Both the position numbers and the translations under genes were made by a program. A DNA stretch of 64,000 nucleotides from Gracilaria domingensis. Its lineage: Eukaryota; Rhodophyta; Florideophyceae; Gracilariales; Gracilariaceae. Positions 11,091-34,819 of this stretch are shown piece by piece. The stretch is from assembly GCA_022539475.1 (NCBI GenBank), contig VCMS01000169.1:1-64000 (forward strand), in the 5' to 3' direction. The notes under the pieces are model-generated. The model was not told the origin of the DNA. It searched no databases and worked only from the letters and a program-made list of their open reading frames with translations. Positions within the stretch are counted from its first letter, which is position 1. Each line of letters begins with the position of its first letter.

Positions 11091-11159
11091 ACCCCCCGCC
11101 CGCGGGCACGTTCTGGTCACATTCCGGCGCCTTCCCGGGACCTCCCAAAACACGCCGCC

Positions 11160-13822: not shown

Positions 13823-14725
13823 TCAAAGCTGGGGGAATGGGGAGGGGGATAACTTTTCCTTAACAACGTTGACGTAGTTTGTATGAAAAGAAGCGGGGTC
13901 ACCACCTACGATGTCTCTTTCTTGGCGGGAAAGGTCGTAGAAGTACGCGTTCCTAAACTGAAAGTCGGAGAAAGAAGTAGGGAAGCCAACGAGAGTCTTT
14001 CCATATGCAAAAGTCGTCCAACGGTCTCTTCCAGGTTGAAAGTAGTACCTCTCTTAAGCGAAACTATCTTCAACAGCTCTTTCATTATTGTGAGCACAAC
14101 CGTACTGCACTCCGTAGTGACTACGTCCATAGGAATGAAACCTCTTGAGGCCCTGACGATGTTGAACGCTGATAGCCACACGAGCCTTCTCATAATAGCT
14201 TACGAGAAATGTGTCTTCGTCGACAACCCCGCAAGTGAGACCCATAGACCTAAACCTGTCTGCAACGTTGGAGGCCCACTTTCCTGTTGCGACAGTGAGA
14301 CTATCCGGAATTTGAGGAGTGACACCATCCTGCCGAGCTGCGTTCCTTGAGGGGACACCAACGTATAGGACAACTTCTGAACATTTGTCCACACCGAGCT
14401 TCGAAACCAATGGTATGATGTCTCCATTCTGGAAGAAAACGAGATTCTCTCTGAGCGAATAAGGGCAAGCCTGAATTACGGTCTCCAGGGTGTTCGTTCT
14501 TCCACAAACTAGTATCGGTACATCAGAAAGATGAGAGGTAGCAGCCATGCTGCAAAATTCGTGTGCGGAAATGACCATATCTTCTTCGTTCGCCAGCATG
14601 GTACCTATACGCCCCCTTCCAACAATAACGGCCCGAGTCCTTCGGGCGGGAGATGAGACCTGAGGGACGTCAGAGTATCTGGGACTCGGAGGCGGAGTGG
14701 GAGGCATGTCGGACTGGGAGTTCAT
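13823..14725 (-). pseudogene. Ketopantoate-reductase-like (ApbA/PanE family) oxidoreductase, two frameshifts
   Basis: Starts at the ATG at 14725 (MNSQSDMPPTPPPSPRY). After a Pro/Ser-rich leader comes a Rossmann NAD(P)-binding start, RAVIVGRGRIGTML, then ILVCGRTNTLETV, ENLVFFQNGD and GKWASNVADRF, as in a plant/algal family related to ketopantoate reductase. At about 14186 the frame changes: DTFLVSYYEK must continue as LVWLSAFNIVRASRGFIP in the next frame. At about 14010 it changes again: the end reads AYGKTLVGFPTSFSDFQFRNAYF, the family's conserved C-terminus, up to the TGA at 13823-13825. Two single-base shifts restore about 300 codons. Either a young pseudogene or sequencing errors. Product would reduce a keto acid or similar; substrate not known. 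Confidence 0.7.
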
Positions 14726-15122
14726 TGCACGTGTTCGAATGTTTTTGTGTGACGATAGAAATGGAAGATGAGGCGGAGAACTGCTGGGGTAAAGAGTGAT
14801 ACTTAAGTAAAAACGGTTGGGAAGCGCAGAACGGGAACATGGTTCACTTTGTGAAAGTGAGCGAAATGTATGATATGTGATTGTACTGAATGAATGATAG
14901 GGCTTGTATGAGACGACAAGCCACAAAGTGTGATGATGTTTTATGAAAGGTAGGTGGAAGAGTAGAAAGTGTGCAATGAATGAAACTGATTTCGAACCTG
15001 AGTTGTAAAGTAGTTGTAAAGTACGAGTTACGGGGAGCTTGAATACAGGATGAAAGGAGCCATTTTGGCTTCATAAATGACGTGAACGGGTTCTATAGCT
15101 TCACTTGGATTGCCATAATTAA
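14726..15122. other. Intergenic between reductase-like gene and epimerase fragment
   Basis: An open minus frame continues upstream of 14725 but has no protein-like motif. Nothing resembling the missing N-terminal half of ribulose-phosphate epimerase was found here. Confidence 0.45.
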
Positions 15123-15431
15123 AAGGATGGAGTTGGATTGCGCCCGAATACGTCTATAAAGGTCGTAGAAGCACTTATGAAGGAAGGAGTTGTAGACATG
15201 TTATTGTTGATGACGGTGGAGCCAGGGTTTGGAGGACAGGCGTTTATGGAGGGTGTTCTTGATAAGGTGCGACATGCAAGGGAGTTGTACCCAAGAATAG
15301 GGATACAAGTGGATGGGGGTATTGGACTGAGTACTGTGAAAGGAGTAGTGAAGGCCGGTGCAAACATTTCAGTTGCAGGATCTGCCATCTTTGGCTCGAG
15401 TAATTCAGCTCATGTCATAGCTGGTTTTTGA
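15123..15431 (+). pseudogene. Ribulose-phosphate 3-epimerase, C-terminal half only
   Basis: Reads GLRPNTSIK, then VDMLLLMTVEPGFGGQAFME, IGIQVDGGIG and AGANISVAGSAIFGS, the conserved beta-strands 6-8 of the TIM barrel, with the metal-binding Asp in QVDGG. The enzyme interconverts ribulose-5-P and xylulose-5-P in the pentose phosphate or Calvin pathway. Only about 100 of the usual 220 or so residues are present; a TAA at 15120-15122 precedes the open frame. The AG just after it could in principle be a splice acceptor, but no N-terminal exon is visible in the 400 bases upstream. Likely a gene fragment; a distant exon cannot be excluded. Confidence 0.7.
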
Positions 15432-15515
15432 AAGGTTGGTCACAGATAGTAGCGTAAATTTATTGTTTATTACATTGTTACCTTTACGTGTTATCACGAC
15501 TATATTCTCCGTCTC

Positions 15516-16315
15516 CATTGGAGATGTATTTCTCTTGTATCACAACCGGGAAAGGATGTGAGAGAACATCATTATATCCCCAGTGGACGCTGAGAGGGAG
15601 GATGAACTACTCTACGTCCCAGAGAGGTGAATTGATGTCCGGATGATATCCTCCAGATGACCCATATTAGAATTACGAAACCTGAAGATGTCCATTTGAT
15701 CTCCTTAAGATGTTCATATGATATACGTAAATGATGCTCAGATGATGCATGAAGTATATCCAAATGATAACCGCCTGATACGCATATGATGCACGAAGAG
15801 ATGTCCATTGGATTTTGTGATGTCCAAATGATGCACAGCGGATTTCCGGACATCCATGGGACATATCTTCGTGCATCATATGAATATCTTTGGAACAGTT
15901 TTTGTACATCCAAAGGACATGTAAAGGGCATCAATTAGGCGCATCCGACGTGGTAATTCGGCGTATCATTCGGATATCCTGGATGCGCAGAAGATATCCA
16001 ACTGATATCCCATAGATGTCCCAATTTTTTATCCGATGGACATCCATTGCGCATCAATTTTTCTCACAGGGCGTGCTATCATTGTTATCCATCCGGTGTC
16101 GAGTGGTGACATATTCTTTTTTTGTCACAACCCACACAGGATGTGATGGAAGAAGAAGATGCCCCCAGTCGAGACAGAGGGTGAGCTACTCTAAGTACAA
16201 TCACTAGTCCCTAGCTTGCCTCCACTGGCAATATCTTCCTGTTTTGCTATAACCATCGAGTGAGGTTATGGTGGAAGAGAAAAATATCGCCGATCGAGGC
16301 GAGGAGGGTGGGGAT
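15516..16315. repeat. Three diverged about 90-bp repeats and short-motif field
   Basis: Three related segments lie at about 15516-15618, 16105-16200 and 16219-16315. Each has a T-rich start, a central RTCACAACC... or CTATAACC... part, a GAGGNTGTGRTGGAAGA-like part and an ending rich in GAG/GGA. Between them (15620-16080) the sequence is crowded with variants of GATGTCC, GATGATGC and GATATCC. 15783-15806 and 15859-15882 form an inverted repeat (GATGCACGAAGA core, 23 of 24 matching). Confidence 0.55.
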
Positions 16316-16365
16316 TATGTGAGAGCGAAAGAGGAGAAAGAGAGGTGGCGCTAAAATAGTGGAAG

Positions 16366-17356
16366 GTGCGGAGGTGTACAGTAGATGTTTTGGCGGGAAA
16401 TGGGATGAGGACAACAGGGACAATCATGATGCTGGATATGGCCCGTGTGGTTGGAGAGTGGGGGTGGACAGCACAGTTTAGCTCGATTGCACTGTATCGC
16501 AGCGGAAACTTCGATCCAACTACTACTTCTTCTTCTGAAGATATCGAACGGATACGTGAAGGATGAGGAGCTGTTGGCGCTGTTGGAGGGGAAGGAGGTA
16601 CCGCCGACGCCGTCACCAAAGCGGGAAGAGGACGTGATTACGGCGGCTGGTCGGATGTCGCAGAAGAAGGAAGTGGCAGATGATGGAAAGAAGTGTGAGG
16701 CGAGGAGAGGGGATGGTGATGAGGTGGAGGGGGTCGCAATGGAGAGAAGGAGTGCGGTGCATCTGAGTTAGTTAGAGGTTGGAGACCAGACAGAGAGTGG
16801 GGGCGGAGAGGGTGACAGGGAGATGCGGTTTGTGGGGGAGATGAAGGCGAGGGTGGGGATGTTGGGGTTGGTGATGAAAGAGCAACTAGACGATGGAATT
16901 GTGGAGATTGTAACGGAAATGGGCGGTGTGGTGCTGAGTGGGGGTGGTAGTGGTGTTTCGGTTGAGGCGATTTCGAGCCTGCGGAATTCGTTGTCGGTAT
17001 TGGGAGTGGAGATGAGAAATCATGTGTATGGGATAGTGGAGTGTGCGGGAAGGGAGGTTAGAGAGTTGCGGGAGGAGAATGGGGTTCTGAACGAGAGGTT
17101 GGACGTACTGGAGAAGGAGGTGAAGGAGCTGGGCAAGAGGCAAAGATTGGTGGAAGAGGAGACGGTGAAAGAAGGTGTGGGGGGAAAGACGGAGAAGGGA
17201 AGTGTGGGAAGTGTGGTGGTGCAGAAGAGGTCCCCCGTGACACCGAAGACAAAGAGTGCTGGGGTTGGGGATGGGAAGCGCCGTCTGAAGAAGAGGCGTA
17301 AGGAGATGAAACAGGACCGGCGTGTCCATGAGAAGATCTCGGTGGGGTGGCCATAA
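16366..17356 (+). pseudogene. Broken coiled-coil gene, unrecognised family
   Basis: Frame 16445-16771 (DEELLALLEGKEVPPTPSPK...) and frame 16823-17356 are in the same phase, separated only by a TAG at 16769-16771; the 5' part (16366-16566, ending SSSEDIERIREG) is in a shifted frame. The C-terminal part has a clear heptad-like coiled coil (REVRELREENGVLNERL, DVLEKEVKELGKRQRL), then a basic tail (GKRRLKKRRKEMKQDRR) like a nuclear signal. About 300 residues in all if intact. It ends about 70 bases before LTR-leader sequence. Function unknown; could belong to a transposon. Confidence 0.4.
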
Positions 17357-17419
17357 AGGTAGGCGGAAAGAAATTTTCGTCGGGCTTGCAAAAAAATGAA
17401 CCCAAATCGGGCACGTTGG

Positions 17420-17990
17420 AGAAAACTCTAGAAGGAAAATGAAACGGCGCGGTGAAACCAAATGATCCGCAACGGTTCGGAAAGGCCCGAGAGAGAAGAA
17501 ATGATTCGAGAGCGACGAAGCGAATCCCGTGAGGATCGCAGTAACCAGAAAAGACCCGAGAGGGTAATTCTAGGTCGGGAGACCAGTTGTAGTACAGCCA
17601 CAGGCCGTGACGACGTACTATACCCTGATAAAGGAACAAATTGCGCAGCACCCAAGCGTGGACGAAGGAGCACTCAACGGACGCTAACAACGGGGCGCGA
17701 GATAGGTGCGCAGCACCGGTAGTGACGGTAGGATGACCCTTGTGCGAAAACTAGACGATGGAAGAATCGGCTAGGGGGTGCTTGAGGTTTACCACGATGA
17801 GCTCTGCCCGGCGGAAGATGCTTAAGTGCACCTCCCACGGGCGCAAGTCACGTGTCGAAAATAATAAACTATCTAACTATAAGGGGGGTCCCGAAAGGCG
17901 ACATGACAACTGTCACAACCCTACACGTGTGGGACTTCGAGATGCACCCTGTGCACACTAACTAAATAAACTAATACTATGCACCCGGGG
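17420..17990 (-). mobile_element. LTR and leader remnant of a minus-strand retroelement
   Basis: 17568-17585 is the same 18-base primer-binding sequence as in element 2 (ttctaggtcgggagacca on the plus strand), followed at 17588 by TGTAG, the LTR edge. The leader left of it (GAAGCGAATCC..., CCGAGAGGG) resembles element 2's leader. Rightward, LTR-like sequence with ACTATCTAACTATA and CTACACGTGTGG corresponds, inverted, to parts of the LTR at 21272-21690. No coding region is attached, so this is an isolated 5' end. Confidence 0.6.
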
Positions 17991-18000
17991 GACGGTGCCT

Positions 18001-18646
18001 CTCACTGCAGTACAGAAAACACCGCAACAGTGGGGTCGAATGCGGAAAATACACGTTTTCCGCAGCCGGAGCCAGACAACGCGAGCGCAAATGCATCAAG
18101 GAAAGCCGGAAGTCCGGGGGAAAAGTTATTCGAAAGAGACCGTGCTGTTACGGCAGACCCGACGTCGGGAGATTTTATTGAAGCATCGAGTGATGAAGGA
18201 GTTTAGAAAACGCAGGAAACGGCCGATATGGCGAGCCGATACGCCACAGTAAGTGGGAAGCAGCACAGTGCTGCACACGTGCACAAAACGAGCCAAGTGT
18301 CTGGATTCGCCCCACATCCCCATCCAGTGGAGGATAACAGCACTCCAGCCGGGCACGTGCCCGCTGTAAGGCTCGCGGCCGCTGAAAACGGATATTCCGA
18401 ATTTGAATCGGCAGCGCACAGCCGTGCAACGGCACAGGCCCCATCACTAGCAGTGAGTGGCGAAACGCTGCCACGGCGCGCCCCACAGCACCACTCGCTG
18501 GCGCACCGCAATGCGGACTGTTCACCCTCACGACGGGAGATCTTACCGGAACGCCGGAAGCTCGCTATTCGAGAAGACCGAAGCAAGGACACAGCCCGAC
18601 AACACGGGAAGGAAAGCCAGAAACCTGGAAGCCTGAATTTCAGGAA
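18001..18646. other. Unassigned sequence left of element 3
   Basis: Several plus-strand frames are open (for example 17979-18206 and 18228-18689) with Ser/Pro/Arg-rich, low-information translations. This could be the decayed variable tail between integrase and chromodomain of element 3, which is equally Pro/Thr/Ser-rich in element 2. No integrase motif was found. Confidence 0.35.
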
Positions 18647-18699
18647 AACACAATCGTCACCAGGACCACCTGCCAGGTGGTCCTGGTGACGATTGTGTT
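18647..18699. repeat. Perfect 53-nt palindrome
   Basis: Arms 18647-18672 and 18674-18699 are exact complements (26 bp, core ATCGTCACCAGGACCACCTG) around a single C. Perfect conservation inside an otherwise decayed element stands out. Confidence 0.95.
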
Positions 18700-18736
18700 A
18701 CACACCAGTGGCGTGTAGAACGCACTGCCGTCAGGA

Positions 18737-19039
18737 TGGAAGCCATTTGGCAACGACGCCCACGACAAGAACGCCAGCAACGACACCTCAGAAGAGAATA
18801 CAATAACCAAACTGCGCACTGAGCGACGTGTCCTTGACAGGGAGTACGTTATGGACTGTCTGATCAGTCACGGCTACGCCTTTTATAGAGAGCTATTGTA
18901 TCGAGTCCGTTGGTACGGGTGCCCCTCGTCGAAGGAAACACTCGAGCCTATCAAGAAGTTTCATCGCCCTAAGGCACTACAACACCGTCGAACACGGAGG
19001 CTGATACCGGCTACGCTAGACAAGGCCCAAGTGGGTTGA
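18737..19039 (+). pseudogene. Chromodomain (element 3)
   Basis: The open frame reads RRVLDREYVMDCLISHGYAF, then RELLYRVRWYG, SSKETLEPIKKF and RTRRLIPATLDKAQVG before the stop. The YxVRWxG and ETLEPxxxF signatures are those of chromodomains, which bind methylated histone H3 and steer chromoviral integration into heterochromatin. The first aromatic-cage position is Tyr (EYVMD). In chromoviruses it is the C-terminus of integrase; here the integrase core is absent. Confidence 0.8.
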
Positions 19040-19413
19040 CCACCAACGCCAGATTGTACCCAGCCGTCTTAAACAGACTAAGCCGACCATCGCGGACGCT
19101 ACTGAAGAGCAGCACCCTTACCGCATACTCGGAAGCCACCGTACAGTAGATAATCAGATTACAAAAATGAAGCCAGGAAACTGGAAAAGAAGACTAGCTA
19201 CAGCGGCCTCTGCGGTCACCCCCAATCGAAAGGCTCAGTGCAACAGCCTCGACCGAGGTACTGCCCACCGAGAAGGGGGAGAATAAGAAGACACAAAACT
19301 ATGAGCCAAGCCAGCAAGGCTGGAGAAGTTTACCTCTAACTATTGCGTTTGCCCCTCATCATCGGGGTCTACTAAGGACTACCTTAGCCCGTCAAGGATT
19401 TCGAGCCGGAAAT

Positions 19414-21218
19414 TTACGTGCCGGAAGGCTCAGCACCTGGGGTGCTCCCACTACCGGGAGCTCCGGAGAAGCGCTGTGCCGCTTTTGATTGCAATTCCGA
19501 CTCGTGGGTCACCGTATCAGGAACGGCCACTCGCACGCTTTGAAGGAAGTCGCGAATGACCGCCGTTCGCGCAGTGAGACTGGAGCTGCCGCCCCCGGCG
19601 GATGCCACTTCCTGAGCCCAAGGACCGGTTGGGGCGGGAACCGCTAGAGCGGATGGGTCAACAACTACGACTTCGTCATCTTCTTTCATCGCTTCGGGCT
19701 CCTGTGCGTCCTCCGCACTCTCTAGACTCCCCTCATCCATGGGGCTTTCTCCCTCAGCAGGGTCATCACCGTCGTCATCGACGTATATAAACCCACGTGG
19801 GTGCCCTTCCAGGATATGTTGCTCCTCTCGGCTGCGACCAGGCGCCTCAGTGGGTCCAAGTATCTCCCAGATCCATGGGTTAAAGTATACGAAGTCGCCG
19901 GCATTGACGCTCCGTCCCGGAAGAGGGTCCGACTGCCGACGAACCCTGTCGGATACCTGGCTAGCAGAAACCTCGTTCCAGTCAATCTGGTCAAGGACGT
20001 CCACAAACGCTGTGGCTTCGGGCTTATTGCGGACCGAGCCGAGTACCTCGGGAGGGTCCAATGGTCGGATTGCTTGCCGGATGAGTTCCGGGATGAACCA
20101 CAACCGGTAGGAGTCATATGCCTCGATGAGAAGGAAAGCCGCTACGCGCACAGTCCATTCTGTCGCAAAGATGCTCTAAAGACTGCGAGGCATATAAGTC
20201 ATGAACTATGAGCCTATGTAAGTTGGACAGGGCGGCAGCTCAACGTGACATCCTCGTGTTACTTCAACCGCAAACCAGAATAATGGCAGCAGCAGATAAC
20301 GCCCGCTATGGGAATGTCGCGCGATGCGCTCAACCTCCGTACACTGATACGGCACCATTTCACCGAAGCGAGAGCGCCATTTTCCCTCGAATCGGAGGCC
20401 TTCATGGAACTGAGACCGTGCAGGACGGCGAAGATACCGAAATTCGTCACGAAGAATAGGCCGAGCCCACAGATTCAACTTCTGCTGAGACGGAACGGTG
20501 TCCGAATATCGGTCGATCTCGTCCAACGCATTGCCTAGATGGTCTCCATAGCTGACCTCGCCAAAAGTTTGGTAACGTTCCACGTCATACTGGTACTCTG
20601 TCGGCACCTGATGCTCGTTCGGAGCTCGGAAGTGTCGCCCGTACCCAATGCCGTCCATCTCATTGCGAGCAAATTGTCTCGTCTCGTTTCGACCTACGAA
20701 CAGGCAACTCGGTATGACCGTAACGCGGGCGATCCAGTCCCAAGAACGAGTGACGTCAGCAGGAAGCCCACCAGGGAGTGGAACATCGACAGCATACGAG
20801 TCGACGAGCTATGTATCCCGAACGGCTTCGGCATCAAGCCAAGGAGCCTGGGCGAAAAGGAAACTATGCCGGTGCAGATCCCGGATGCGCAACGCGCCTG
20901 CAGTGGGCCATCCGCCCAGCGTAGCTGGCATTTCAACGTTGAACCAATCCTAAATGGGCGCGGGGCCACCGTGACCTGGAGCGTGATCTTGTCCGGAGGA
21001 ACCCGGCTGAGAGGCAACCGCCTACTGCGGAAAAGCACAGACCGGAATGGCGGGCTGGAGACTTGCATGCGTGCCTTCGAAGACTGGTGAGAGTTGGGTG
21101 TGTTGGACATCGTGGGAGAGCTCGATGTAGCGAGGTACGCTATTGGGACCGGAGGTGTTGGTGGTTCTGAACAGTTCTCGGCAGACCCGTCCTGGGAGAC
21201 ATCCGTATATACCTCCAT
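19414..21218 (-). pseudogene. Antisense accessory ORF of element 3, about 600 codons, broken
   Basis: Homologous along its length to the antisense ORF of element 2. C-terminal half (frame 19414-20151): RVAAFLLIEAYDSYRLW, IDWNEVSASQVSD, NAGDFVYFNPW, HPRGFIYVDDD, acidic stretch, end near 19414. Middle (20206-20658): YQTFGEVSYGDHLG, RPILRDEFRYLRRP, RFEGKWRSRFGEMVPYQ. These two are in one frame, split by TAGs at 20206-20208 and about 20172. The N-terminus (ATG at 21218, MEVYTDVSQDG) is in shifted frames between about 20660 and 21100 (WDWIARVTVIPSCLFVGRNE aligns with element 2). No known domain recognised; no membrane segment. It lies between chromodomain and 3' LTR, on the strand opposite to pol. 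Confidence 0.7.
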
Positions 21219-21271
21219 CGCGACGCGCGTCTAGCCGACGAGGTCGGTGTCTCAGCCTGAGAAGGGGGAGA

Positions 21272-21690
21272 TGTAGAGCAAAACGCCCTGGAGAGGGATG
21301 CACTCAGGTTCTTTTCATATTTCGTTGATCCGTTACCGGCTTCGACACCTCATGTTATGAGAGGCTACTATGATAATGGCCCCATTTTAGGGTATGCCTT
21401 AGAAGGTTGGTGTTTCTGCACACGTGTGCCGGGTTGGTCCGATGTCGGGTGCGCCGTGGCAAGCCTGCCACGGTTTCACACGTGTAGAGTGTTGGTCGGC
21501 AGCGTCAGATAGTTAGATATTTTAGTTGATAATTTCAAGTGCCCTATGTAGGCGGCGGCACCTGCCGCCACTGTACTGGAAGTAAATCTCAAGGAGGCTT
21601 CTGGCTCTGACTTTCTTGCCGCTTGCGAACGGTCTTCGTCCCTAACCGGGCAAACCGCCGCAACGCTGGGCTATTCATCCAACCTCTACA
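21272..21690 (+). repeat. 3' LTR of element 3
   Basis: Begins TGTAGAGCAAAACG right after the purine tract GAGAAGGGGGAGA, the same edge as element 2's LTR read on its coding strand, and appears to end CTACA at 21690. It is about half the length of element 2's LTR; the right boundary is judged only from the TGTAG...CTACA ends. Confidence 0.65.
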
Positions 21691-21829
21691 ACTAAAGAGT
21701 TCTGGGCCGTCGTTACCTCATCTTTTCTACTGTTTCATTGTTATTAATTCCGTCATACGGCTCGTATCACTCTGCCCTGTTATACAGGTTTGGCCCACAT
21801 TTACTGGGAATATTTGCCGATCTCCCTAA

Positions 21830-22755
21830 TCAGTGCACCGCTGCGCGGCTCGTTTGTTGTCCTTTTTGCCCGACACCGTTGGCCTGGATATCTCCACTGG
21901 CTGTGGCACGCCGGAACATCCGGATACCTACGCCGAATTTTCCCCGGTTCTTTTCCGCGGCGCGGCTGTTATTTCCCGGCACGCGGGTTTGCACCACATG
22001 TTTCTCGTCTTTTCCGTTCTCGTTTTGCCTTCTGTGCTCTGGACTCTTGCGCTCTCGACAACGTACGGTCCGCCCTTTCGTCCGTTGTAAGTACTCTCTT
22101 GGACATTTCATGCTTGCATTCGTTTCATCGTTAGACCCAGTACCGTGCAGTTTTGCGTTTAAACGTCGCTGACGTTTGACTCCATACTTCTCCTGAGCCA
22201 AGCGTCTTTTTGTCACCATATCTTGACCAATTCCACGAATGCATTTCTTAGCTGCTGGATAATATTCGCCATCCTCAGCTCTCAGCGGATTCATTTTTAT
22301 ACGCGCATTAGCTAACGCAGCACATACCATAAAAATAGAATCGTATAATTTCTCCCACCAACGATACTTCACAGCCATAATTGTACACAGTGATCTCAAT
22401 CGTCCAAACCAATTTTCCACAATAATCCTATCAGAAGAAATTAATTTATTCTGATTTAAATCGTCTAGAGACAGACGACTGACCCGAGAATTCTTCTTAA
22501 GATGAAGAGCACGAATAAAATCCCTTGCACATTGGTAACCGTAATCGACGAGAACAGCCAATGTACTGGAAATTCCTCACATAAAATCCCAGTGTCAGTT
22601 ATTTTCATCTCGTTTTCAAATTTCTGCAGTGCATCTTTATAAAAATTCTCAAAGGTTTCATGAAAAGTATCAATATCGGCCTTGGATCCAAAATAGTGGG
22701 GCGTTACGAACACAGCCATTCCGTTAGGTAAAACAGAAACTTCCCTTTTGTATCT
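21830..22755 (-). pseudogene. PIF/Harbinger-like DDE transposase fragment
   Basis: C-terminal part of a DDE_Tnp_4-type transposase. Visible: VTPHYFGSKADIDTFHETF (22600-22720), then WAVLVDYGYQ with the second catalytic Asp, and SSDRIIVENWFGRLRSL with the catalytic Glu, then AALANARIKMNPLRAEDGEYY and a Lys/Arg-rich tail. The frame changes at about 22560 (HW | AVLVDYGYQ). Reading rightward toward its N-terminus it is open (KREVSVLPNGMAVFV) up to 22755, where the LTR of element 2 starts, so the LTR cut the gene. The first catalytic Asp is lost. I could not find the missing half beyond the other LTR. Confidence 0.75.
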
Positions 22756-23726
22756 TGTAGAGCAAAACCCCAGCGATGGGATCGTCTCTCAAGGCGTTCG
22801 AGTCCTTGCCCTCTAGACGAGGTGAACTCAGTGGTGAGCCCTCCGAACACGGATAGTGCTGGTGTAAGACGGCCCTTGGTACGGGATATATCTACGGAGG
22901 TTGAGGGGTGAACGGGTCTTATCCAGGAATCGGGCGAAAAGTGACGGAATGGCCAGGAGGAAAGGTACCGTAGAGCGGTGTGAGCCCTAGGTAGAAGGGG
23001 GAAAAAGAAGGGAAAAACAAAGGAGGAACGCTTGGCGGGGCGTGCGACAAGCGGCAACAGACCCGGCGACGGGAGACAAGGGTTGTGTATTAAGCCCATG
23101 CGGCAGTAACTCTGTACAGAGACGGAAAAACCCCCTGACACAGGTAAGCAGTAATCTGCAAGAAAAGAAGAGTAAAACAACGGTCCGAAGACGGAAATAA
23201 GCCCGAGGGCAACAGCTGTGTAGGTCAGTAGTGCCTGAATGATCCCGAGGGATGAATTCAGTCCGTACCGTACGCGGTGACTCTCCTGAGGGAGTTGTGC
23301 ACTTCGCGCAGGCGAACTTGGTTCAGAGCCGAACTCGGTTACCCTTTACTGAAGGAGGAGGTGACCGGGAGGTCACCTCTTATATCGTAACCGATAAATT
23401 AGCTAAACTAAATTGAATAATCTAATGCACACCTAAGCAGGTCCACACACGTGGTGCACGTGACAACCGGCGGCAGCGGCCAGTAAAATATCCGACAATC
23501 ATAACAAATCATGTGTGTACACACCCATTCCTATACACGCGTACACGCGACCAATACTCATCTGCGCCACGTCATGGCCGACCCCTCAGGGTGCCATACC
23601 TCAATACTGCCAAAAAGTAACCCATCCGTGGGCCAATACTCATACCTTCCGAATACCCGGAATCATCCTTACCAGGAGTTTATGAAAACCATCCCCGTGT
23701 ACCGGGCCAGCACGTTTTGCTCTACA
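22756..23726 (-). repeat. 3' LTR of element 2
   Basis: 971 bp with 13-bp inverted ends (TGTAGAGCAAAAC / GTTTTGCTCTACA). Includes the dyad GGTGACCGGGAGGTCACC near 23360. The adjoining internal bases 23727-23740, read on the minus strand, give AAGTAGGGGGATA, the polypurine tract that primes plus-strand DNA. Confidence 0.93.
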
Positions 23727-23806
23727 TATCCCCCTACTTAGCGCAGAAAACATCCAGTTTGCAAGCGGAGACTCATCAGCGAGCGAGTATATAAGCGTGG
23801 TCCGCC

Positions 23807-25621
23807 ATGGACATATCCGAGATTCCGGTTCCTCGTCACAACGAGACACACGCGCAAGCGCACTCAACTTCTCTGCACTCAGACGATTCAGTACTTGAAG
23901 TTTCTTCTGCGGTCGACGATTCGATGAACCCTCACCAGGGCGACGAGCAGCATTCCCAAGCCGGGGTTCCGAACGTTTCGGGTCCCGCAACTCCTGAGAC
24001 AGGGTATCTCGGCGGTTTCGCCTCCGCTACTCTGCCTCAAAGTCAACATCACACGACTACACCGAATCCGGTCGACGTCGCGGCGTGGAATTCCGCCCAG
24101 GCGGTGCCCTCGCTGGCGACTCCAGCTGGCTGGATAGCGCGTGAATCGCTCCTTGTTCAAGATCCGACTACCGGAGGAAGCTGGGCCTATTCCAGAGCGC
24201 CCTGGTTTCAACCGACAGCGGTTCGCAACAGTGCGTTGATGGATTCATATACCGAGAACGGTATGCTGCCTGGCGGCCTACACCGAGATATGGTGGATTC
24301 CTTGGATTGGAGACACCGCGTGGCGGTCGCACCTCACGTGTTGTCACGGAAACGGCGCGGCCGTGGACACGAAACGCTGGATGAAGCGCGTGCGGCTATG
24401 GCGCGATTGGCATACTTTCGGAAGGACCGAGCCTCGTTCCCCGACAGGATTCTCGAGTCATACGGGTTCGACCTTTTCCGGTTCCGAACTTACGGAGAGA
24501 TCAAATATGGCGCGAACCTCGCGGACTTTCAAGGGGCGGAAAACTTCCCGGAGTCGATGCCGGCGGACCTTCTCCTGTTCAAAAGGCCTATCCTGCGAGC
24601 GGAGTTCCGATATCTACATCGCCCTTCGGGAGAGGGAAGCTTCTTCGACCGACTGCGAAACGAACGCAAATGGCGATCCCGGTTCGGGTATCTGATTCCA
24701 CACCAGAACATGGAGGTTGAACGTTTGCGTCCGGATGCACTAGCGGATCGATTCGCTCCACTCCCATCGTGGTGGGCTCACTATGAGGTACCACGCGGGT
24801 GTTTCCCGGAATTGCCTTCGTGCATCTCCTATGTGAGGTCACGCATGATTGCCAATCCGCACTCGGAGTATTGGATGCTCTTCATGGCCGAATAGGCCCC
24901 TCGCGTTGCCGCGTTTATGCTATGGGAAGCATACGACCAGAAGCGTGTTTGGTGTTTGTCTCCGAGGTTACGGAATGTGATTAGATCACTGGACTTATAC
25001 ACCGCGCTCTGTTAGGGCGACAACGTCAGAGAGGTCATCAGCCTTATAGATCTCACTATTCCATTGATTGGAGTACCGTTCCGGCAGAAAACGTCCCCAG
25101 GGGCACTCGTTCGCACTACGACCGTTCGCGAGGGCGAAGACATCGGGGGTGCCGGTGACTTCGTGTATTACGATCCCTGGGAGGGCGTGACCGTCCCGAA
25201 GGAGCGGGCTCTCGTCCTACGCGGAATTTCTCGAGTGGTTCCGAGCGATCACCCTATTGGGTTTATGTTTTCCGACAACTATTACTCCGTAGCAGAGGAG
25301 GACGATCCAATGGTGGATGATACTGTGGAAGACCCAGCAATGGGAGGTCCGTCGGCGGTTTTCGCAGGGGTTCTGGTTGTCGGAGGGGCGGCTGCGCCAG
25401 TTGCTCCTATCGATTGGAGGGTTGGCCCTTCGCAGGGGAATATCGATCGTCGCGTGATAGCGATGCGCAACCAACTCATCGAACTTTGGGTGCCGGTTCC
25501 ACCGGATATGTACGACCTCGGCCAGCTGTTGGCCTTGGGCGCGCAGGCTTTCGCGAGTCAGCCTCCCCAAGCGGGGCCGTCCAACCCTGGAGATGCCGGT
25601 CCTTCGACAGGATGGCAGTGA
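23807..25621 (+). pseudogene. Antisense accessory ORF of element 2, 605 codons, two internal stops
   Basis: One frame from the ATG at 23807 (MDISEIPVPRHNETHAQ) to the TGA at 25619-25621, broken by TAG at 24893-24895 and TAG at 25013-25015, plus a short frame disturbance near 25050-25120. Regions: Ser/His/Pro-rich N-terminus; LDWRHRVAVAPHVLSRKRRG; FRTYGEIKYG; RPILRAEFRYLHRP; RNERKWRSRFGYLIPHQNME; then after the first stop PRVAAFMLWEAYDQKRVW; GGAGDFVYYDPW; HPIGFMFSDN; acidic patch; Gly/Pro tail. The first 362 codons are fully open. At the first TAG element 3 has TGG (Trp), so the stop is a point change. A TATATAAG lies at 23788-23795, very close to the ATG. I recognise no known domain, signal peptide or membrane span; a nuclear or capsid-associated role is only a guess. 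Confidence 0.75.
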
Positions 25622-25986: not shown

Positions 25987-26223
25987 TCACCTCACGGCAC
26001 AGTAGTACTGCCACCCTACCTGGGCTGCGTCCAAGTTTGGAGGTGGCGGTAGGCGCTTGCGCCGGTAGTAGGCGAGAACCTTCGATCGAGGCAGATGTTC
26101 GATCGGCTCGAAAGTATCCTCCTCAGGGAAGTATCCGTACCAACGGACTTGGTATACAGTCTCCCCATCGCGGTTCACGACGTCACTCACGATGCGTTCG
26201 ATAACGAATTCCTGTGGGAACAC
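25987..26223 (-). CDS. Chromodomain (element 2)
   Basis: MFPQEFVIERIVSDVVNRDG, VYQVRWYGYFPEEDTFEPIE, then SKVLAYYRRKRLPPPP and LDAAQVGWQYYCAVR. The cage residues are recognisable: Phe in EFVIERI, then Trp and Tyr in VRWYGY. It would read a histone methyl mark and direct integration. Unusually, about 815 bases without an open frame separate it from the integrase frame ending at 27039, whereas chromoviral chromodomains are normally fused to integrase. A TAA stands four codons before the Met. Confidence 0.82.
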   Translation of the reverse strand: MFPQEFVIERIVSDVVNRDGETVYQVRWYGYFPEEDTFEPIEHLPRSKVLAYYRRKRLPPPPNLDAAQVGWQYYCAVR

Positions 26224-27038
26224 TTCCCGTTAGCTGGCTTCCATGGCGTATGGGCCACTCCTGCTGACGCAGTTTCACCTGGAGAGGTTCTGTAGCTGCC
26301 TAAAATCACGCAGGTGAAGCTTTCCAAGTGTTGGAGACGGGCTTACTTCCGCAGTTTTCCACGCATTCCGGTGCGGCGGCCGTACTGTAACTCGCGTGCT
26401 ACGCCTTCTATCCTCTAGCTAGAGGGATAGTTGCAAAGCTCTCGAACAGACGAGTCCAACGATATCGCGTTATTCGCCGACAGTCGAGAGACCGAAAAAC
26501 GGTAATACTTCCGGTTGACGACTCTCCCGGCCTTCATCGGGATAACCGTTTCGGTGACGGAATTGCGTACGGCACTCCCTTGACAGGGCGGTGGTTTGTC
26601 CGGCCACGGGGCGTGTGACACGAGCTCTGATTGGCTCTACGTCACAGATTGGCCACCACGACAATCATGCGCATGCCGTGCTCGGCCACCCGTTCGCGAA
26701 AGGTCGCCTACCGCTCATTAGGGCTTTCCACGTTGTAACGTGCATCGCGTGGCACGCGCCTGGTGCTGTCAGGCCCCGTGTCACGGATATTGCACGGGTG
26801 CAGTGGCGATGGAATGCCAGGGCTCCCGGAGCCACTCCACGCACAAAGTGGTGCACACCGTAGAGTGTAGGCTTCCATGATATCGTTCAAAATCCCACAA
26901 GGTAATCCATAATGAGTGGTAATATTCAGCACAACTCGTTCACGAGGCTTCCCCTTTCAGGGTTGCAGCGCTATTCTTCCGCGTATGGCGGCTGGTCCGG
27001 ATCAGCAGAAACTGTCTTCACAGTTCGGCTGTCATTCC
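26224..27038. other. Non-coding gap between integrase and chromodomain (element 2)
   Basis: No minus-strand frame connects integrase to the chromodomain here. Possible explanations: decayed hinge, an insertion, or an intron; I saw no convincing splice pair or terminal repeats. Confidence 0.4.
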
Positions 27039-28547
27039 CTACGCGGTTACGCGACTTCGAGCAGTTAGCAATCCATGATGGGTAGCTGCTTCTGCGGCGG
27101 CGTCGCGTCTGTCGCGCGCACGTTCCGTGGTAACGGAGACCGATACGGCGGAGTCCTCACGGTTGGGGTGCGACAAGGCAACTGAGGCACTAGATTCTTC
27201 TACGGGAGCGACTGGATTGTCAGTGTGGATAACATTTCCCGTGGTTGGGGAACCGGGCGACACCGGAGCGTCAACGCCATTCGCAGCAGCTGCGGCATCC
27301 TCCCCCTCTTTAGGTGGCGCCACGGACTCCATCAGAAGATAGGGTGGGGGGGTTACTCTTGTAAATACTCGTGAAGAGTCGTTGGAATTCGTCCAAGTAG
27401 TAGAAAGTTCAGTTCTGTGGTCAGAAGTACCTACTGTAGGTAGATCAATTAATCCTCGGCCCGGGTGCGGAAGAATCGCCGGGCGCGACCGTAGTGTAGC
27501 GGCTGTTGACGGTTCTGCCTCCTGTTGAGGATCCTCTGACTGGTTATTGGTTGAGGTGGGCCCGGTTGCGGTGGGTGGCGTCTTGGCGGGCACACCGTGG
27601 TCACGCGAGATTCGTTCATGACGTCCGTCAATGTCGAGTACGACGGTATCCGGATTGACTGAAATGACTCGATATGGTCCATCAGCGATGGGGGAGAGCT
27701 TATGTCCCTTTTCCTTGTCAGGATTGTAATACTCCTTCCGAAGGAACACAAAGCTGTTGGGCTCTACCACCACTGGTGTACCGCGAAGTCGGCGATCGAA
27801 ATTGAGCTTGTACGTAAGCTGTGTCTTGTCCATGGCCTTCCGGGCTACCGGTACCATCTTGGTCAACCAATTTTTCCAGGTGTCCTTGTACATCCGTGGT
27901 GACGGGAAAAACGCTAGCGTCGGTTGTGATTCGATTGCTACCGGTGGCGGTATCCTCGAAAGAACGAGTGCAAACGGCGAAAGCTTCGTTACCCGATGCA
28001 CCTGGGTGTTATACGCGTACGTAATAGCATCGGTGCACAAGTACCAATCCTTTGGGTGATCCGCAAGATAGGATCGTAATGCGTTAAGCATTGTACGATT
28101 AAATCGTTCCACCTGCCCATTACACTGGGAATGATAGGTTGTTGTAAACAAATTCTTGACATCCAAGATACGGCATACGTCCATAAAGAACTTTGACGCA
28201 AACTGCGAGCCATTTTCTGAAAGCAGATTAACGGGTGGCCCGTAAGTGAAGACCCAATGCGTCACAAATGCTTGTGCAACTGCTGCTGCAGTGATCCACT
28301 TCAACGGAACCGTTCGCATTAACTTCGAAAACTTGTCCGTAATAACCAGGAGATACCTGTGACCGCGTGCGGTTCGAATTAATTCGCCCAGAATGTCGAT
28401 AGCGACGAACTCCAAAAGAATCCGAGCTGGGAACAGCGTCATCGACTTCGAATTTCGTCGGAGTTTGAGGTTGTTCTTGGCGCATTCCGTGCATGAACGG
28501 CGTACTGCGTAGCAGTCGAATGCCATAGCTGGTCAATAAAAGTCTCT
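27039..28547 (-). pseudogene. Integrase with variable Pro/Thr/Ser-rich tail (element 2)
   Basis: Same frame as the upstream pol but preceded by two TGA codons (near 28530 and 28548). The zinc-binding half spans the stops: HISHYAKIGGHSGG, then RSCTECAKNN. Core: VAIDILGELIRT with catalytic Asp; NLLSENGSQF, where the second catalytic Asp is Glu (SEN instead of SDN); SQCNGQVERFNRTM with the catalytic Glu. The GPY/F-like module is GPYRVISVNPDTVVLDIDG. After about residue 300 the tail is disordered (Pro, Thr, Ser, Asn) to the stop at 27039. Asp-to-Glu at the catalytic site normally abolishes strand transfer. Confidence 0.9.
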
Positions 28548-29366
28548 TCAGAGAGTTAGATACAACTTCCTGCCACCAGAGTGTCCCCCAATCTTTGCAT
28601 AGTGGGATATATGGAGAGCCCTCCATTGTAGGGAGTGTGGAACCACAATTTGAGGGCGTGGCCCAAAAATCCTGACAAGGAATCCCTGATCGTTGGTTAG
28701 AAAGGGTATCTTGAAACCCCCGTTGAGTCGGGCCCTTATCTGAGTACAGAAAGGATCCCCGTGTTGTTCACGTATTACCTCTTCAGCGGTAATGGGTTCA
28801 AATGAGCCAGGCGGTGGCTTGGCCGTTTCTGCGGCGAGAATATCGTCACAGACGTCATCCGTAATTTCGGAGTCTTCCTCCCATTCTTCCACCAAGAAGC
28901 ATGGTATGTGATCGTCGTCGACAGGTTCTGCTTCACGAGACGTTCCTAAACGGGAAAGCGCGTCAGCCTGCATATTCAGGATTCCCCGTTTGTACCGGAC
29001 GTCAAAATCGAATTCCGATAAGCGGAGACGCCAACACATAAGGCGACCCGACGGCTTGGAGATCTCCATAAGCCAGCGGAGAGCCGAATAATCGGTATGT
29101 ACCTGAAAATGGGTTCCCATGAGATAGGGTCTTAAGGTAGACAGCGCCCAAACGACGGCGAGACACTCTTTCTCAGAGACTGAGTAATTACGCTCATCCA
29201 CGTTCAATGAACGAGACCAGTGTCCAACTGGACGTCGCTCGCCTTCCTTCGAGACTTGAAACAATGCACACCCCACTTGGTGGTCACTGGAATCAGTATC
29301 AAATTCATATTGAAGCCCTGGAGTGGCCAACGCCAAAATCGGCGGAGACGTAACAGCGTCGATTCA
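28548..29366 (-). pseudogene. RNase H domain and linker (element 2)
   Basis: Continues the pol frame after a TGA at 29364-29366 (AFSS-stop-IDAVTSPPILAL; Arg would be expected). Features: YEFDTDSSDHQVG with catalytic Asp, NYSVSEKECLAVVWAL with catalytic Glu, FQVHTDYSALRWL with catalytic Asp, MQADALSRLG with the last acid. An acidic linker (DDDHIPCFLVEEWEED) follows, as in element 1. It removes the RNA template during reverse transcription. Confidence 0.92.
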
Positions 29367-31523
29367 CGACGAAAAGGCGGATGCTTCCGCATCGCCGAAT
29401 GTTTCCAGATTAACTGGCTGTCCTTTCCTGAGAAGGGAGTTGAGAGGAGCTGCAGCATCAGCGAAATTCGGGACGAACCGACGGTAAACATTACACAAAC
29501 CGAGAAATGATCGGAGTTTCGTTTGAGTTGTCGGATGTTTCGCTTCTTTCAGCGACTTCACCCTTACCTCGTCAACCGAGAGTTTCCTTGGGCGGATAAT
29601 GTGGCCCAGGTATTGCACCGAGTCGGTAAAAAATTCGCATTTCTTGAGCTTCAAGGTAACACCTGCGTCACGCAGAACCTGCATCACTTCCCTCACATGG
29701 GACATATGTTCATCCATACTGTTGGAAAATACGACAATGTCGACCAAGTACACAAGACAAGTCTTCCACTTGAATCTGGCCAACAGAATGTCAATCGCGC
29801 GCTGAAACGTAGCCAGAGCATTCGTTACCCCGAAGGGCATCCGTCTGAAACAGTACAGTCCTTGGTGACATACAAACGCGGTCTTGTCGCGATCTTCCTT
29901 TCGAATTGGAACCTGCCAGTAACCCCAATTGGCGTCAAGGGCGGTAAATACTCTGGCGCTTCCCAGCGAGTCGATGTACTCATCCATCGGTGGAATCGGA
30001 TACACGTCTTTCATGGTAACGGCGTTGAGTCGCCTGTAATCGATGCAAAAACGCCACGATCCATCCGACTTCGGAACAAGTACAACGGGCGATGCCCATG
30101 ACGACTGAGTTGGCTCAATTACGTCGGCACGTAGCATCTTCTCGACTTGAGACTTTTCTTCTTCCCGCGCTTTCGGGCTTGCCCGATACGGGTGTTGCGC
30201 GATTGGGCGAGTATCTGGGAGCAGATCAATACGGTGCTCCGTAATTCCAATTGTTCCAAGGAAACCGTCCCACATGGGAGTAGATTCTCTGAGCATGTCT
30301 CGCAACTTCTCGCGATGAGACGCTGGGACATGGTCCAGATTCAACTTTTCTAATTCCTCAACAGGATTAGTCTGTTCTGTGCCAGGGGGTAGCGCTGATT
30401 TAACCGGAATGAACGTTCGTTCATGACCCGAACTAACTAGATTCACCTCTTCAGTAGCGACTGCTTCCGGTACGGCGGAGTTTCCATATCTGGAGGAATC
30501 CGACAAAACGGAGTTTCCAGGACGCACCTCTCCCTCCTTGGCTTCGGGCACACCGAGGACCTCGGACATTGGGATTCTCGTCTGTACGAGCGCCTTCGGA
30601 TGCGGCAGGACCGAACCCAGTACCTGGTGCTTGACTAGCCACTGAGTGGTTTTGCAAAAGTTAGCAACCAGTACCTCGAAAGGTTGATCGGGCTCGATAG
30701 AAACAACAACATTAGCTAAAGCGAGCTGTCGCTGATCGTATAAAGATGAAGACCGTTGAACTAGTCGAATTCCATGTTGTTTCGAGACGCACTGCACCCA
30801 CATCTGAGATTCCGGCGGGATTGAAACGGATTTCGCTATGCGAAGCTTTGTTGATTTCGGATCAACGTCTGGAACCTCCTGAGCCACAGGTAGTGGAACG
30901 CGCTTCCGGATTGCGCGCCTCAACGGCTTCCGAACAATTGGAATGGTTGTACCGTCTTCCATTTCCACGGTTTTCGCCCTCGGGCGTACCGCTTCGACAA
31001 AGCGGTCGCAAAATTCACAACCGAGTATAACCGGTGCAGCGAGTGAATCGCAGACAACAAATTCAAGTTTCACCACGTAGGTGCCAAGTCTCACTGTGAG
31101 AGTTAAGTAACCAATCGTGCGCAACAGGTTATTGTTCGCGTCAGCGATATCCAAGTCTGGACCATAGCGAATGAATTCCCGAAGTGCCGGGGGCACTAAC
31201 GAAGAGTGAATGAGATTGGGCGCAGCGCCCGTGTCTAACACAGACAGTTGACGAACCATAAACTGGTGTGATAAGACGAGGTAGGCGTAAACCTTATAAT
31301 TCCTCTTGGCCATCACAAGGACTGTATCCGGGTTACAGAAATTTCGGGACCGTACCCACGGACGACGGAGAACCGTTAAAAGCTCTGAGTCTACGTCAGA
31401 TTGAGCCATCTTCCTCGTAAGGATCTTCCTCGCAAGGAAAGTGACCTGGGAGCGAAGCGGCGGCGCCTCGGGCGTCTCCGACTTCGGCTCAGGAGACGCC
31501 CCTCCCGCAGGGGGAACTCCCAA
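29367..31523 (-). pseudogene. Protease and reverse transcriptase (element 2), RT active site mutated
   Basis: 719-codon open frame. Protease: VLDTGAAPNLIHSS (about residues 95-110) and VILGCEFCDRFV. RT: EPTQSSWASPVVLVPK, FCIDYRRLNAVTMKD, FTALDANWGYWQV with the first catalytic Asp, MPFGVTNALATFQ, and VYLVDIVVFSNS where YxDD is expected: the codon for the first Asp of the pair is GTC (Val). That single change should kill polymerase activity. The thumb, connection and FVPNFADAAAPLN follow. The frame is given from its open start; the true processing site with Gag is unknown, and the first codon is not ATG. Confidence 0.93.
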
Positions 31524-31724: not shown

Positions 31725-33632
31725 TCAGCTGGTGACAAGGACTCCTACCACCCGATAATTTTCGGTAACTCCCGAGCGGGCAACCATGCACACAGGTGCA
31801 ATATGACCGGGTCGGTAACAAATATGACAGATGGTCGTCACCGACTTATCGAAAGATCGATTACCATCTGGCCGTCGTTGCGGTTGCGCATTCACCCATC
31901 CTGGGCGTGAGAAACGGCTGCCGTTGGTCGCGTAAGCGAGTGGAGCGGCCTGTACCCGTGGTACTCCCATATAGAGTGCGGGGTCACCTTCCGAAGTCGG
32001 AGTCAACGACGACGGAATGTCAGAAGACCCATACGAGTCGGGAGCACTTCCAACGAAGTGGACGTTATCCAGATCCGGGTTCACGGAGTTTCCACGTTCC
32101 AAGGAAAGAGATGGAGATGACTCGTTGACGAGCAACGCTCTTGAGCGACGGGGTTTCGGCCGGCGCCGAGCACGGAGGACTTCGCCTTCAGCCTGGGCGT
32201 ACTGGACCAATTCCAGATACGTAAGCCTACTTTTCTCTTCGCGATATCACGCCACCGAAGCCTTGATAGAAGGGTCCAACCCATCCACGAACATCGTGAA
32301 TCTCTCCTGAGCGGAGTACACATTTCCACAGCGATGAAACGCTTTGTTCAACCGAGTTGAGTAAACCGCCTCGGTCTCTTCAGTCTTCTGTTTAGTATCT
32401 CGCAGAGCGAGCGTCGCGTTGTGAATCGCGCTTCCTGTTGCATAGGACCTCAGGAGGTATTGGACCGCTTCCGGCCAACAACTGACACCTCCCTCAGATG
32501 CACGGGACGACCCTCGGACCGAGTTAAACTGATCTTCAGCCATCCCTGACAGAAAATAGGGTAAAGCGAGAAACGCTTGCGCCTCGTTCATACCGAGAAT
32601 GTCGGCTTCCTGCACAAAGCGGGCCAGGAAGTCCAATACCAGAATCGGATCTTCGCCATCGAATTTCTTCGTAAAGACGATATTCAGTCTTCTGATGTGA
32701 TCCTTCACCTTGCCGGTGCTTCGCGAGGTGCGACATGATGATGAATCGTCTATTCGGTAATAACGATACGATAACAGCTTCCTGTAGAAGGGACTCGTTG
32801 GTTTCAACTCCTTGAGTCCAAGATGACGTCTACCTTTCTCGCGAGAGCGAATCACTCCTTGAGTGGCATATGTCGCCTTCGACTTCGTTCTGCGGGCTCG
32901 ACTCCCATACCGTTCTCGGTCTTCCTCACTGTCCGAAGAACTGGATGAAGTAGATTTCGCAGAGCGAACGCTAGAATTGGAACTAGACGAATCCAAGTCG
33001 TAACGGAGTTCCTTTTTGGATCGTCGATTTCCGTGATACGGAGACTGGCGTGCCGAGCGCTTAGAGGCTTCTTCCTTAGCATTCTTCGCATCAGATGCGT
33101 TATCCATCCGGATGATCTCTTCGACAGTAGACAACCGAGTGGTTAGGCGATCGATTTCAGCTCGATGCTCCTGAATAGAGGAATAGTAAGCTTGAACAAA
33201 AGCGGCTGGTGCACCCAGACTTTCCAAAATGGAATTCACGTCTTGACGTAAGACACGAATTTCATTGGTCGGATCTCCGATTTCAGCATGGTCAAGCTTC
33301 CGTATGAGATACTGCAGATCCTCGAACAACGAGTTTTGCGCGAGCTGACTGACACGCAGTTGAGACTCGACGTACGAGTATCCAGGAGTTTCAACCACAT
33401 CGTCTGGTCTCTCCGTGGCCGGAGTACCCGTAACGGGCGGAGCTCCTGCCGTAGAAGCGGCCATCGGACCCGACGTGACTGACAAAGCTCTCCGGGGTTC
33501 CGGGACCTGTTCATTGTCAGGCGACCTTGCAGGTACGGAGGCGCGAGAACGCGGAGGTCTAGGCGGAGGCACACCAGCATCCCTGGCCACACCGTTTCGA
33601 GAGTTCGGCGCGGGGGCGCCATACCGGGCCAC
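31725..33632 (-). pseudogene. Gag with CCHC zinc knuckle (element 2)
   Basis: 33632 is an ATG (MARYGAPAPNSRNGVARDAG). Pro/Arg/Ala-rich start, helical part (LRVSQLAQNSLFEDLQYLIRK), a Ser/Lys-rich basic stretch, then the Gag core FDGEDPILVLDFLARF and YLLRSYATGSAIHNATLALR, end near 32247. The next frame (31725-32210) holds the knuckle CHICYRPGHIAPVC (C-x2-C-x4-H-x4-C), which binds the genomic RNA. The change of frame near 32230 is either decay or a programmed shift; one copy cannot tell. Gag forms the virus-like particle in the cytoplasm. Confidence 0.88.
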
Positions 33633-33839: not shown

Positions 33840-34819
33840 TGTAGAGCAAAACCCCAGCGATGGGATCGTCTCTCAAGGCGTTCGAGTCCTTGCCCTCTAG
33901 ACGAGGTGAACTCAGTGGTGAGCCCTCCCAACACGGATAGTGCGGGTGTAAGACCGCCCGTGGTACGGGATATACCTACGGAGGTTGAGGGGTGAACGGG
34001 CCTGATCCAGGAAGCCGGCGAGAAGTGACGGAATGGTCGGAAGGAAAGGTACCGTAGAGCGGTGTAAGCCCTAGACAAAAGGGGAAAAAGAAGGGAAAAC
34101 CAAGGGAGGAAAGGAGAGGAATCCCGCGGCGGGACGTGCGGCAAGCGGCAACAGACCCGGAGCGGGGAAACGACAATGTGTATTAAGCCCACGCGGCACA
34201 ACTCTATACAGAGACGGAAACGCTACTAATTGTGGTAAAAGCAGTACAACTGCACAGTAAAAGAAACAGAAATTCCGAAGACACGGAATAAATAAGCCCG
34301 AGGGCAAGGCCACAATGGTCAGTATTGCCTGAGTGATCCCGAGGGATGAATTCAGTCCGTACCGTAAGCGGTGACCCTCCTAAAGGAGTTGTGCACTTCG
34401 CGCAGGCGAACGTGGTCCAGGGCCGGACTCGGTTACCCTTTACTGAAGGAGGAGGTGACCGGGAGGTCACCTCTTATATCGTAACCGATAAATTAGCTAA
34501 ACTAAATTAAATAATCTAATGCACACCTAAGCAGGTCCACAAACGTGGTGCACGTGACAACCCGCGGCAGCGGCCAGTAAAATATCCGACAATCATACAA
34601 GAAATGTGTGAACACACCCATTCCTACACACGCGTACACGCGACCAAGACTCATCTCCGCCACGTCATGGGCGACCCCTCAGGGTGCCATAACTCAATAC
34701 TGCCAAAACGTAACCCATCCGTGGGCCAATACTCATACCTTCCGAGTACCCGGAATCATCCCTACCAGGGGTTTATGAAATTCTTCCCCGTATACCGGGC
34801 GAGCACGTTATGCTCTACA
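33840..34819 (-). repeat. 5' LTR of element 2
   Basis: 980 bp, direct copy of 22756-23726 with scattered substitutions and small indels; ends TGTAGAGCA / TGCTCTACA. It should contain the promoter for the minus-strand transcript. Confidence 0.93.

Follow-up and report, generated by a model that had tools for sequence, protein, structure and literature searches.

An antisense gene under protein-level selection between the chromodomain and the 3' long terminal repeat of red-algal Ty3/gypsy elements

A few groups of long terminal repeat (LTR) elements carry open reading frames (ORFs) on the strand opposite to the main genes. In Retand, of the Tat lineage, the antisense ORF aORF-3R, which contains the TRP28 domain (PF04195), lies between pol and the 3' LTR and is present in nearly all recent copies in many species (PMC11963269, in the part available). 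As described in the available part of another source, gene23 of the maize element Grande is antisense next to the 3' LTR and has an upstream promoter that drives its transcription, its product, GENE23, being nuclear; antisense ORFs occur also in rice RIRE2 and in PvRetro13; Boty-like elements of Botrytis cinerea possess an additional antisense gene, brtn; and in human T-cell leukemia virus (HTLV) antisense transcription proceeds from a promoter in the 3' LTR (PMC7264820). Here we consider an ORF of this kind in a stretch of 64,000 nucleotides from the red alga Gracilaria domingensis (contig VCMS01000169.1, G000:C169:1-64000; hereafter, the window) and in the genome to which it belongs (77.9 Mb in 680 contigs searched). 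Two copies, in two Ty3/gypsy elements of the window, had been pointed out in an earlier note made from the letters alone, and their relatives leave very little doubt that this antisense gene is maintained by selection as a protein.

The red-algal ORF and Retand aORF-3R are alike in being antisense between pol and the 3' LTR. However, Retand is a non-chromovirus of flowering plants, whereas the red-algal elements have a chromodomain at the end of pol, and the homologues of the ORF that bear a name are red-algal; moreover, TRP28, the domain of Retand, has no match in the antisense proteins by hmmscan up to E 1 (a search that involved no profile-profile comparison). The likeness to Grande gene23 and RIRE2 is one of place and strand, as described for those elements, and whereas transcription from its own promoter is reported for gene23, the red-algal ORF has only a motif to set beside it. 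Similarly by description, brtn resembles the red-algal ORF as an extra antisense gene of an LTR element in a non-plant host, although brtn is fungal, and the HTLV promoter lies within the 3' LTR, whereas the red-algal TATA-like motif lies outside it. The antisense gene of HTLV is HBZ; brtn of Boty is reportedly, to go by the title, the subject of Zhao et al. 2011, a work cited in PMC8365987. With plant aORF-3R and fungal brtn the architecture is already known, the earlier note too having mentioned antisense accessory ORFs in a few LTR-element lineages; it is the protein family and the host group that appear new. A literature search found no report of an antisense element gene in red algae, many subscription papers being outside its reach; in the parts available, Gypsy occurs once and antisense not at all in the genome paper of Gracilariopsis lemaneiformis (PMC5970526), and a source that mentions red-algal chromoviruses never uses the word antisense (PMC3605345).

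The relatives of the window copies belong to several families of elements. The loci read were long ones for 20 copies, four of family E (two of them long, two short) and four from deeper lineages. Wherever the ORF was found, namely in eight families or lineages (A-E and G-I), it lies beyond the chromodomain on the strand opposite to pol, and the LTR edge next to it was read directly in families A-E. The host elements show the pol order of Ty3/gypsy, with PF00078, PF17917/PF17919, PF17921 and PF00665 following each other in L026 (Pfam), and the chromodomain (PF00385) is found above cut-off, C-terminal to the integrase, in relatives of families A, D and E. Copy counts are lower bounds, and the ranking of the matches listed favours intact copies. 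With the ORF of window element 2 (family A) as the query, at least 113 matches were scored, some of them pieces of one copy and 18 belonging to family D; the family D ORF gave at least 71 places (51 of 71 among the matches listed without internal stop), the Gracilariopsis chorda protein P0002 at least 77 family E core places (57 of 77 among the matches listed without a stop), and the family I ORF, with 83 candidates scored, at least 87 matches, several of which lie in open frames of ~935 amino acids (aa). In family I (L041:2697-5387), the antisense ORF of ~935 aa, seen in many stop-free copies listed, includes an extra proline- and RG-rich tail, which in L041 amounts to 374 codons and stands behind a stop. 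Eighteen homologous proteins were found; those named are P0002 and P0006 from Gracilariopsis chorda and P0017 and P0018 from Agarophyton chilense, a red alga of the Gracilariaceae, to which Gracilariopsis also belongs. P0002 is 66-72% identical to family E of G. domingensis, and all four gene models are probably element proteins, not host genes. The hundreds of listed copies and the relatives in other species dispose of the possibility, raised in the earlier note, that this is a captured gene present in two copies only; a captured host gene restricted to a few copies or to one family was likewise ruled out, by the copy counts and the spread over families.

Length, place and orientation are kept, as that note had proposed: unbroken relatives read in the genome encode 599-629 aa, and among 95 matches listed for reverse transcriptase (RT)/RNase H (RH), 43 have a listed antisense ORF 1-7 kb downstream, in every case on the opposite strand, with the spacing falling between 3,249 and 3,304 bases in 34 of the 43 pairs. 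The list of antisense ORFs used for this pairing was incomplete, consisting of 71 family D matches, 38 of which paired with an RT match among those listed, and 37 hand-picked from the other ORF searches. A variant of the element devoid of the antisense ORF was considered for the 52 of 95 RT matches that remained unpaired; all six that were inspected (not a random choice, with 46 remaining) carry the ORF on the opposite strand, each of them aligning in at least two pieces and showing frame breaks or an insert; one of them, L037, is without the first 112 residues in the stretch read. For the unpaired match on C334, the contig stops before the expected place of the ORF. Apart from these stands family F, represented in the window by element 1 (94-3301, minus strand), which has 61% RT identity to family D and runs off the contig end.

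The case for selection comes from 13 pairs of ten antisense ORFs, with family I pairs and pol besides, compared by the Nei-Gojobori method (own script). Between families A and B, the ratio of nonsynonymous to synonymous substitution rates (dN/dS) is 0.128 for the antisense ORF versus 0.129 for pol, this being the only unsaturated pol pair of six, with the other five saturated. The antisense ORF yields 0.233 for A-C, 0.244 for A-D, 0.172 for B-D and 0.240 for D-C; within family E, the ratios are 0.195 (E_L029-E_L031) and 0.240 (E_L029-E_L032), for a family D pair 0.277, and for the family I pairs 0.107, 0.110 and 0.203. Variation is in excess at the third codon position (0.215, 0.140 and 0.504 for the three positions between A and B). 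Past selection on the protein, which the earlier note had suggested, is thus supported by dN/dS well under 1 between families, and neither a ratio near 1 nor the lack of a conserved ORF among the relatives, the outcomes which that note had held against its own proposal, was encountered.

It could be argued that the open frame has no protein function at all and is a by-product of sense coding, of RNA structure, or of the recent capture of a host gene, the more so as both window copies are broken and, in family E, a 343-codon open stretch on the sense strand overlaps part of the ORF. However, the other five frames of the same alignments contain 5-26 stops, and in four of them the ratio of the proportions of nonsynonymous and synonymous differences (pN/pS) is 0.68-2.60, mostly near or above 1; furthermore, the ORF is present in five families and three deeper lineages and is co-inherited with pol (see below). 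The antisense frame alone joins openness with constraint. Sense-strand coding as the cause of the open frame is ruled out by these frame tests, a non-functional frame is refuted for families A-E and I by dN/dS and the frame tests together, and we regard the absence of a protein function as highly improbable. Several figures nevertheless weigh against the view of a selected protein: between-family dS exceeds 1, so that the ratios are rough, and A-E and D-E are saturated (pN/pS 0.56 and 0.57); dN/dS is higher in A-A pairs (0.468 and 0.522) and in E_L031-E_L032 (0.612), as drift of copies after insertion would lead one to expect, and these pairs provide no evidence for selection; and frame -1 also shows pN/pS of 0.24-0.84, together with 11-26 stops, because its third positions face those of the antisense ORF. 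In addition, no relative of the ORF was seen in two other partial copies of family F, one on a contig that ends early and the other in a stretch of 4 kb; this may be a real absence or may reflect how little of these copies could be read.

The gene appears to be old in these elements. Lineages G, H and I are 45-53% identical to families A-E in RNase H-integrase residues, and past their chromodomains an antisense ORF is found in G (628 codons), in H (213 + 576) and in I (522 + 374), the H and I copies read being two open pieces split by a stop. The A2 profile, a hidden Markov model, finds the ORF in G (E 1.8e-10), H (E 2.3e-7) and I (E 9.2e-21) within a small set of ORFs from four loci, and hhalign aligns the two ORF groups over 249 columns with a probability of 99.0 (E 2.7e-18). 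Distances in pol and in the ORF among nine elements are strongly correlated (Mantel r 0.94, a value reached by 1 of 9999 permutations), and the two trees agree save for the order of C and D, which is weakly supported in pol (0.473). Therefore, this agreement speaks for a long association, and the antisense gene probably predates the split of lineages A-E and G-I. Between more distant elements, the ORF has diverged more quickly than pol (A-D identity of 49% vs 81%).

The region between the LTR edge and the ORF offers a candidate promoter. In all five families A-E, the LTR edge is followed by a pyrimidine-rich block that corresponds to the polypurine tract on the sense strand (by eye). A TATA-like motif is located at +61/+62 from this edge in one copy each of A, B, C and E, and D has a weaker variant close to that position (by eye); the bases between the edge and the motif differ widely among families. 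Compared with shuffles of 130 bases, the TATA score is unusual in B (10/2000) and E (4/2000), and the shared position is a better argument for the motif than its score. In the deeper lineages, there is TATAAG ~38 bases ahead of the first ATG in H and TTTTATA nearby in I (both by eye). The first ATG comes 15-19 bases past the motif in A-C and ahead of it in E. As transcripts typically start 25-32 bases downstream of a TATA element, a transcript starting there would miss this ATG. Constraint is weak over the first 42 codons, where third positions are hardly in excess (A-B pN 0.35, pS 0.58, with 17, 14 and 20 differences by codon position), most of the ORF past them is more constrained, and the homologue P0001 begins at the conserved internal Met. 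These data argue, with moderate force, for a TATA-type promoter of the gene's own, a short distance inward of the 3' LTR, and for translation from that Met. Pointing the other way are the TATA scores in A (257/2000), C (375) and D (416), which are unremarkable against the shuffles, the failure to see a TATA-like motif in G by eye and, for the internal start, the IPxPR motif right after the first ATG, kept in A-C and nearly so in D, and the residues that E and P0002 have in common ahead of the conserved Met.

The earlier note recognised no domain in the protein, and the same holds for searches of Pfam, NCBIfam, PHROGs and the PDB, none of which gave a match above cut-off or with a meaningful E value. 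Specifically, in Pfam nothing was above cut-off for 16 aligned members and eight further antisense proteins (best weak match at E 0.022), six antisense proteins had no match in NCBIfam and nothing meaningful in PHROGs (one match at E 0.093), and sequence searches of the PDB returned no match for one protein, one at E 0.82 for profile A2 and none for profile A3; the viral contigs and prokaryote genomes scanned held no relative of the protein. Its conserved core contains invariant residues, namely, the R/E/Y set of "RTxGExxYG", EFR, "ERxxR" and "EV(P)xG", whereas its ends are low in complexity, with RG-rich tails in H and I.

Its place between pol and the 3' LTR is where an envelope gene would be sought, and the earlier note had listed an env-position protein among the options. 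However, envelope genes are in sense orientation, in contrast to all 43 pairs described above, and simple hydropathy shows nothing clear: over the first 40 residues the 19-residue means do not exceed 0.97, giving no clear signal-like N-terminus (three of the nine pieces, those of B, C and H, are without their own start), and one of nine proteins (H, at 1.81, in a conserved stretch with E and W) rises above the usual 1.6 of a membrane stretch. An envelope identity is unlikely, and an envelope-like protein in the env position is, in our judgement, scarcely credible.

Rather probable, by our assessment, is that the ORF is an antisense accessory gene with its own promoter, encoding a soluble nuclear factor that acts on its own element. 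Such a gene belongs to a clade of Ty3/gypsy chromoviruses, probably of red algae, in which it occupies the stretch from the chromodomain to the 3' LTR on the strand not used by gag-pol. Its transcription would be driven by the TATA-type promoter, without any need of the LTR promoter, and its translation would begin at the conserved Met within the ORF. The product would be a soluble nuclear accessory factor working on the DNA, RNA or pre-integration complex of the element, with transcription, escape from silencing or integration as possible tasks, in the manner of plant aORF-3R and the retroviral antisense genes, to which it would bear no detectable sequence relation. Within this reading, the nuclear accessory or regulatory role is the weaker part; it is suggested by the analogy with GENE23, the retroviral antisense genes, the RG tails and the lack of clear membrane features. 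That it draws on analogy and composition counts against it, as does the calculated pI of 4.9-6.7.

A more specific, and doubtful, possibility is that the protein is an anti-silencing factor which frees the element from host silencing, the separate promoter staying active even when heterochromatin, which a chromodomain integrase would prefer, shuts the LTR promoter. The presence of the chromodomain, the TATA-like motif outside the LTR and the faster evolution of the ORF as compared to pol, expected under conflict with the host, would all fit; however, the protein is similar to no Pfam family and, hence, to no known anti-silencing protein there, and antisense transcription might itself feed silencing via double-stranded RNA, as the available part of one source has it (PMC7264820). 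More doubtful still is a cofactor of the particle or of integration, which would join the virus-like particle or the pre-integration complex and aid nuclear import or integration. Although a conserved core with low-complexity ends, the RG-rich tails in H and I, and a constraint between A and B equal to that on pol could be expected of such a protein, making a structural protein off the opposite strand would call for an mRNA of its own, a drawback where large amounts are needed, and a sense-strand gag with a zinc knuckle (motif by eye) is already present. The capsid-associated role considered in the earlier note finds no support.

Returning to the accessory gene with a promoter of its own, one may speculate, tentatively, that the gene evolved independently, with its separate promoter, in an ancient clade of red-algal chromoviruses and that its protein, of a new fold, counteracts silencing by the host. 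Regulatory genes in antisense next to the 3' LTR would then have had separate origins in elements of red algae, flowering plants and fungi and in retroviruses, marking out this strand and place as a favoured niche for anti-host genes. In any event, antisense genes beside the 3' LTR are extended to red algae. The role of such genes is still described as an open question (PMC7264820, in the part available), and the many recent copies found here in a single small genome, which fall into several diverged families and show clean selection on the protein, are material for testing it.

In the window itself, the two ORFs of the earlier note both exist and are homologous, the family D ORF matching 20925-19480 (-) at 37% and 23816-25435 (+) at 43%, but neither is a single open frame. 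Element 2, on the minus strand, is whole in outline and decayed as a copy, its LTRs differing at 110 of 964 aligned bases (Table 1). Its antisense ORF begins 81 bases inward of the 3' LTR and contains two internal stops and a local frame disturbance (by eye); the pol pieces contain RT, RNase H and integrase domains (Pfam), with rve slightly under its cut-off. Element 3 is a truncated copy from another family, E, and its DNA is 83% identical to the family E copy L029 across the ORF-bearing stretch and 75% across the pol end. Read in a single frame, its ORF has 12 stops, the open pieces being 19414-20175, 20206-20808 and 20694-21230. The assignment of both hosts to chromodomain Ty3/gypsy elements holds, by PF00385 in relatives, except that element 3 lacks most of pol: no protease, RT, RH or integrase was found in window 12501-22500.

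Table 1. Positions of the parts of elements 2 and 3 in the window
Feature	Positions	Strand	Remarks
3' LTR, element 2	22756..23726	-	
5' LTR, element 2	33840..34819	-	
Polypurine tract, element 2 (pyrimidine-rich on + strand)	23727..23741	-	adjoins 3' LTR; labelled by position and composition
TATA-like motif TATATAAG, antisense strand of element 2	23788..23795	+	62 bp inside 3' LTR edge
Antisense ORF, element 2, decayed	23807..25621	+	intact close relatives in genome
Conserved Met (MNP...), codon 40, likely translation start	23924..23926	+	strong constraint from about here; P0001 starts at same Met
Chromodomain, element 2, past open pol frame	26014..26220	-	relatives match PF00385 above cut-off
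pol, element 2: RT, RNase H, integrase in three open pieces	27039..31523	-	
gag-like stretch, element 2	31785..32306	-	57% to family D gag
Antisense ORF remnant, element 3	19414..21218	-	frameshifts and stops
Chromodomain remnant, element 3	18833..19036	+	
Leftover 3' end of pol, element 3	18017..19097	+	75% to family E DNA
3' LTR, element 3	21272..21945	+	start exact; end approximate (extent of family E match)

A feature of the sense strand concerns the position of the chromodomain, which in families A and D keeps to the pol frame yet comes after ~700 bases with several in-frame stops (L026:3513-4448 in a young D copy, the equivalent place in L009 and L017, and window 26014-27039), whereas in family E (L029) a single pol frame of 1737 codons continues through the chromodomain. 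This suggests a spliced intron or stop read-through ahead of the chromodomain in families A and D.

Elsewhere in the window, a transposase fragment (21830-22561, minus strand; Pfam DDE_Tnp_4, E 1.3e-8) sits between the ORFs of elements 2 and 3, and a HAD-like hydrolase encoded at 12333-13274 on the minus strand (Pfam Hydrolase_3, E 1.2e-10) is likely a host gene. Positions 9938-11167 are occupied by a block of tandem and inverted repeats, with arms of up to 498 bases that are 89% alike and a palindromic TTAGGGTACCTACCCTAA core.

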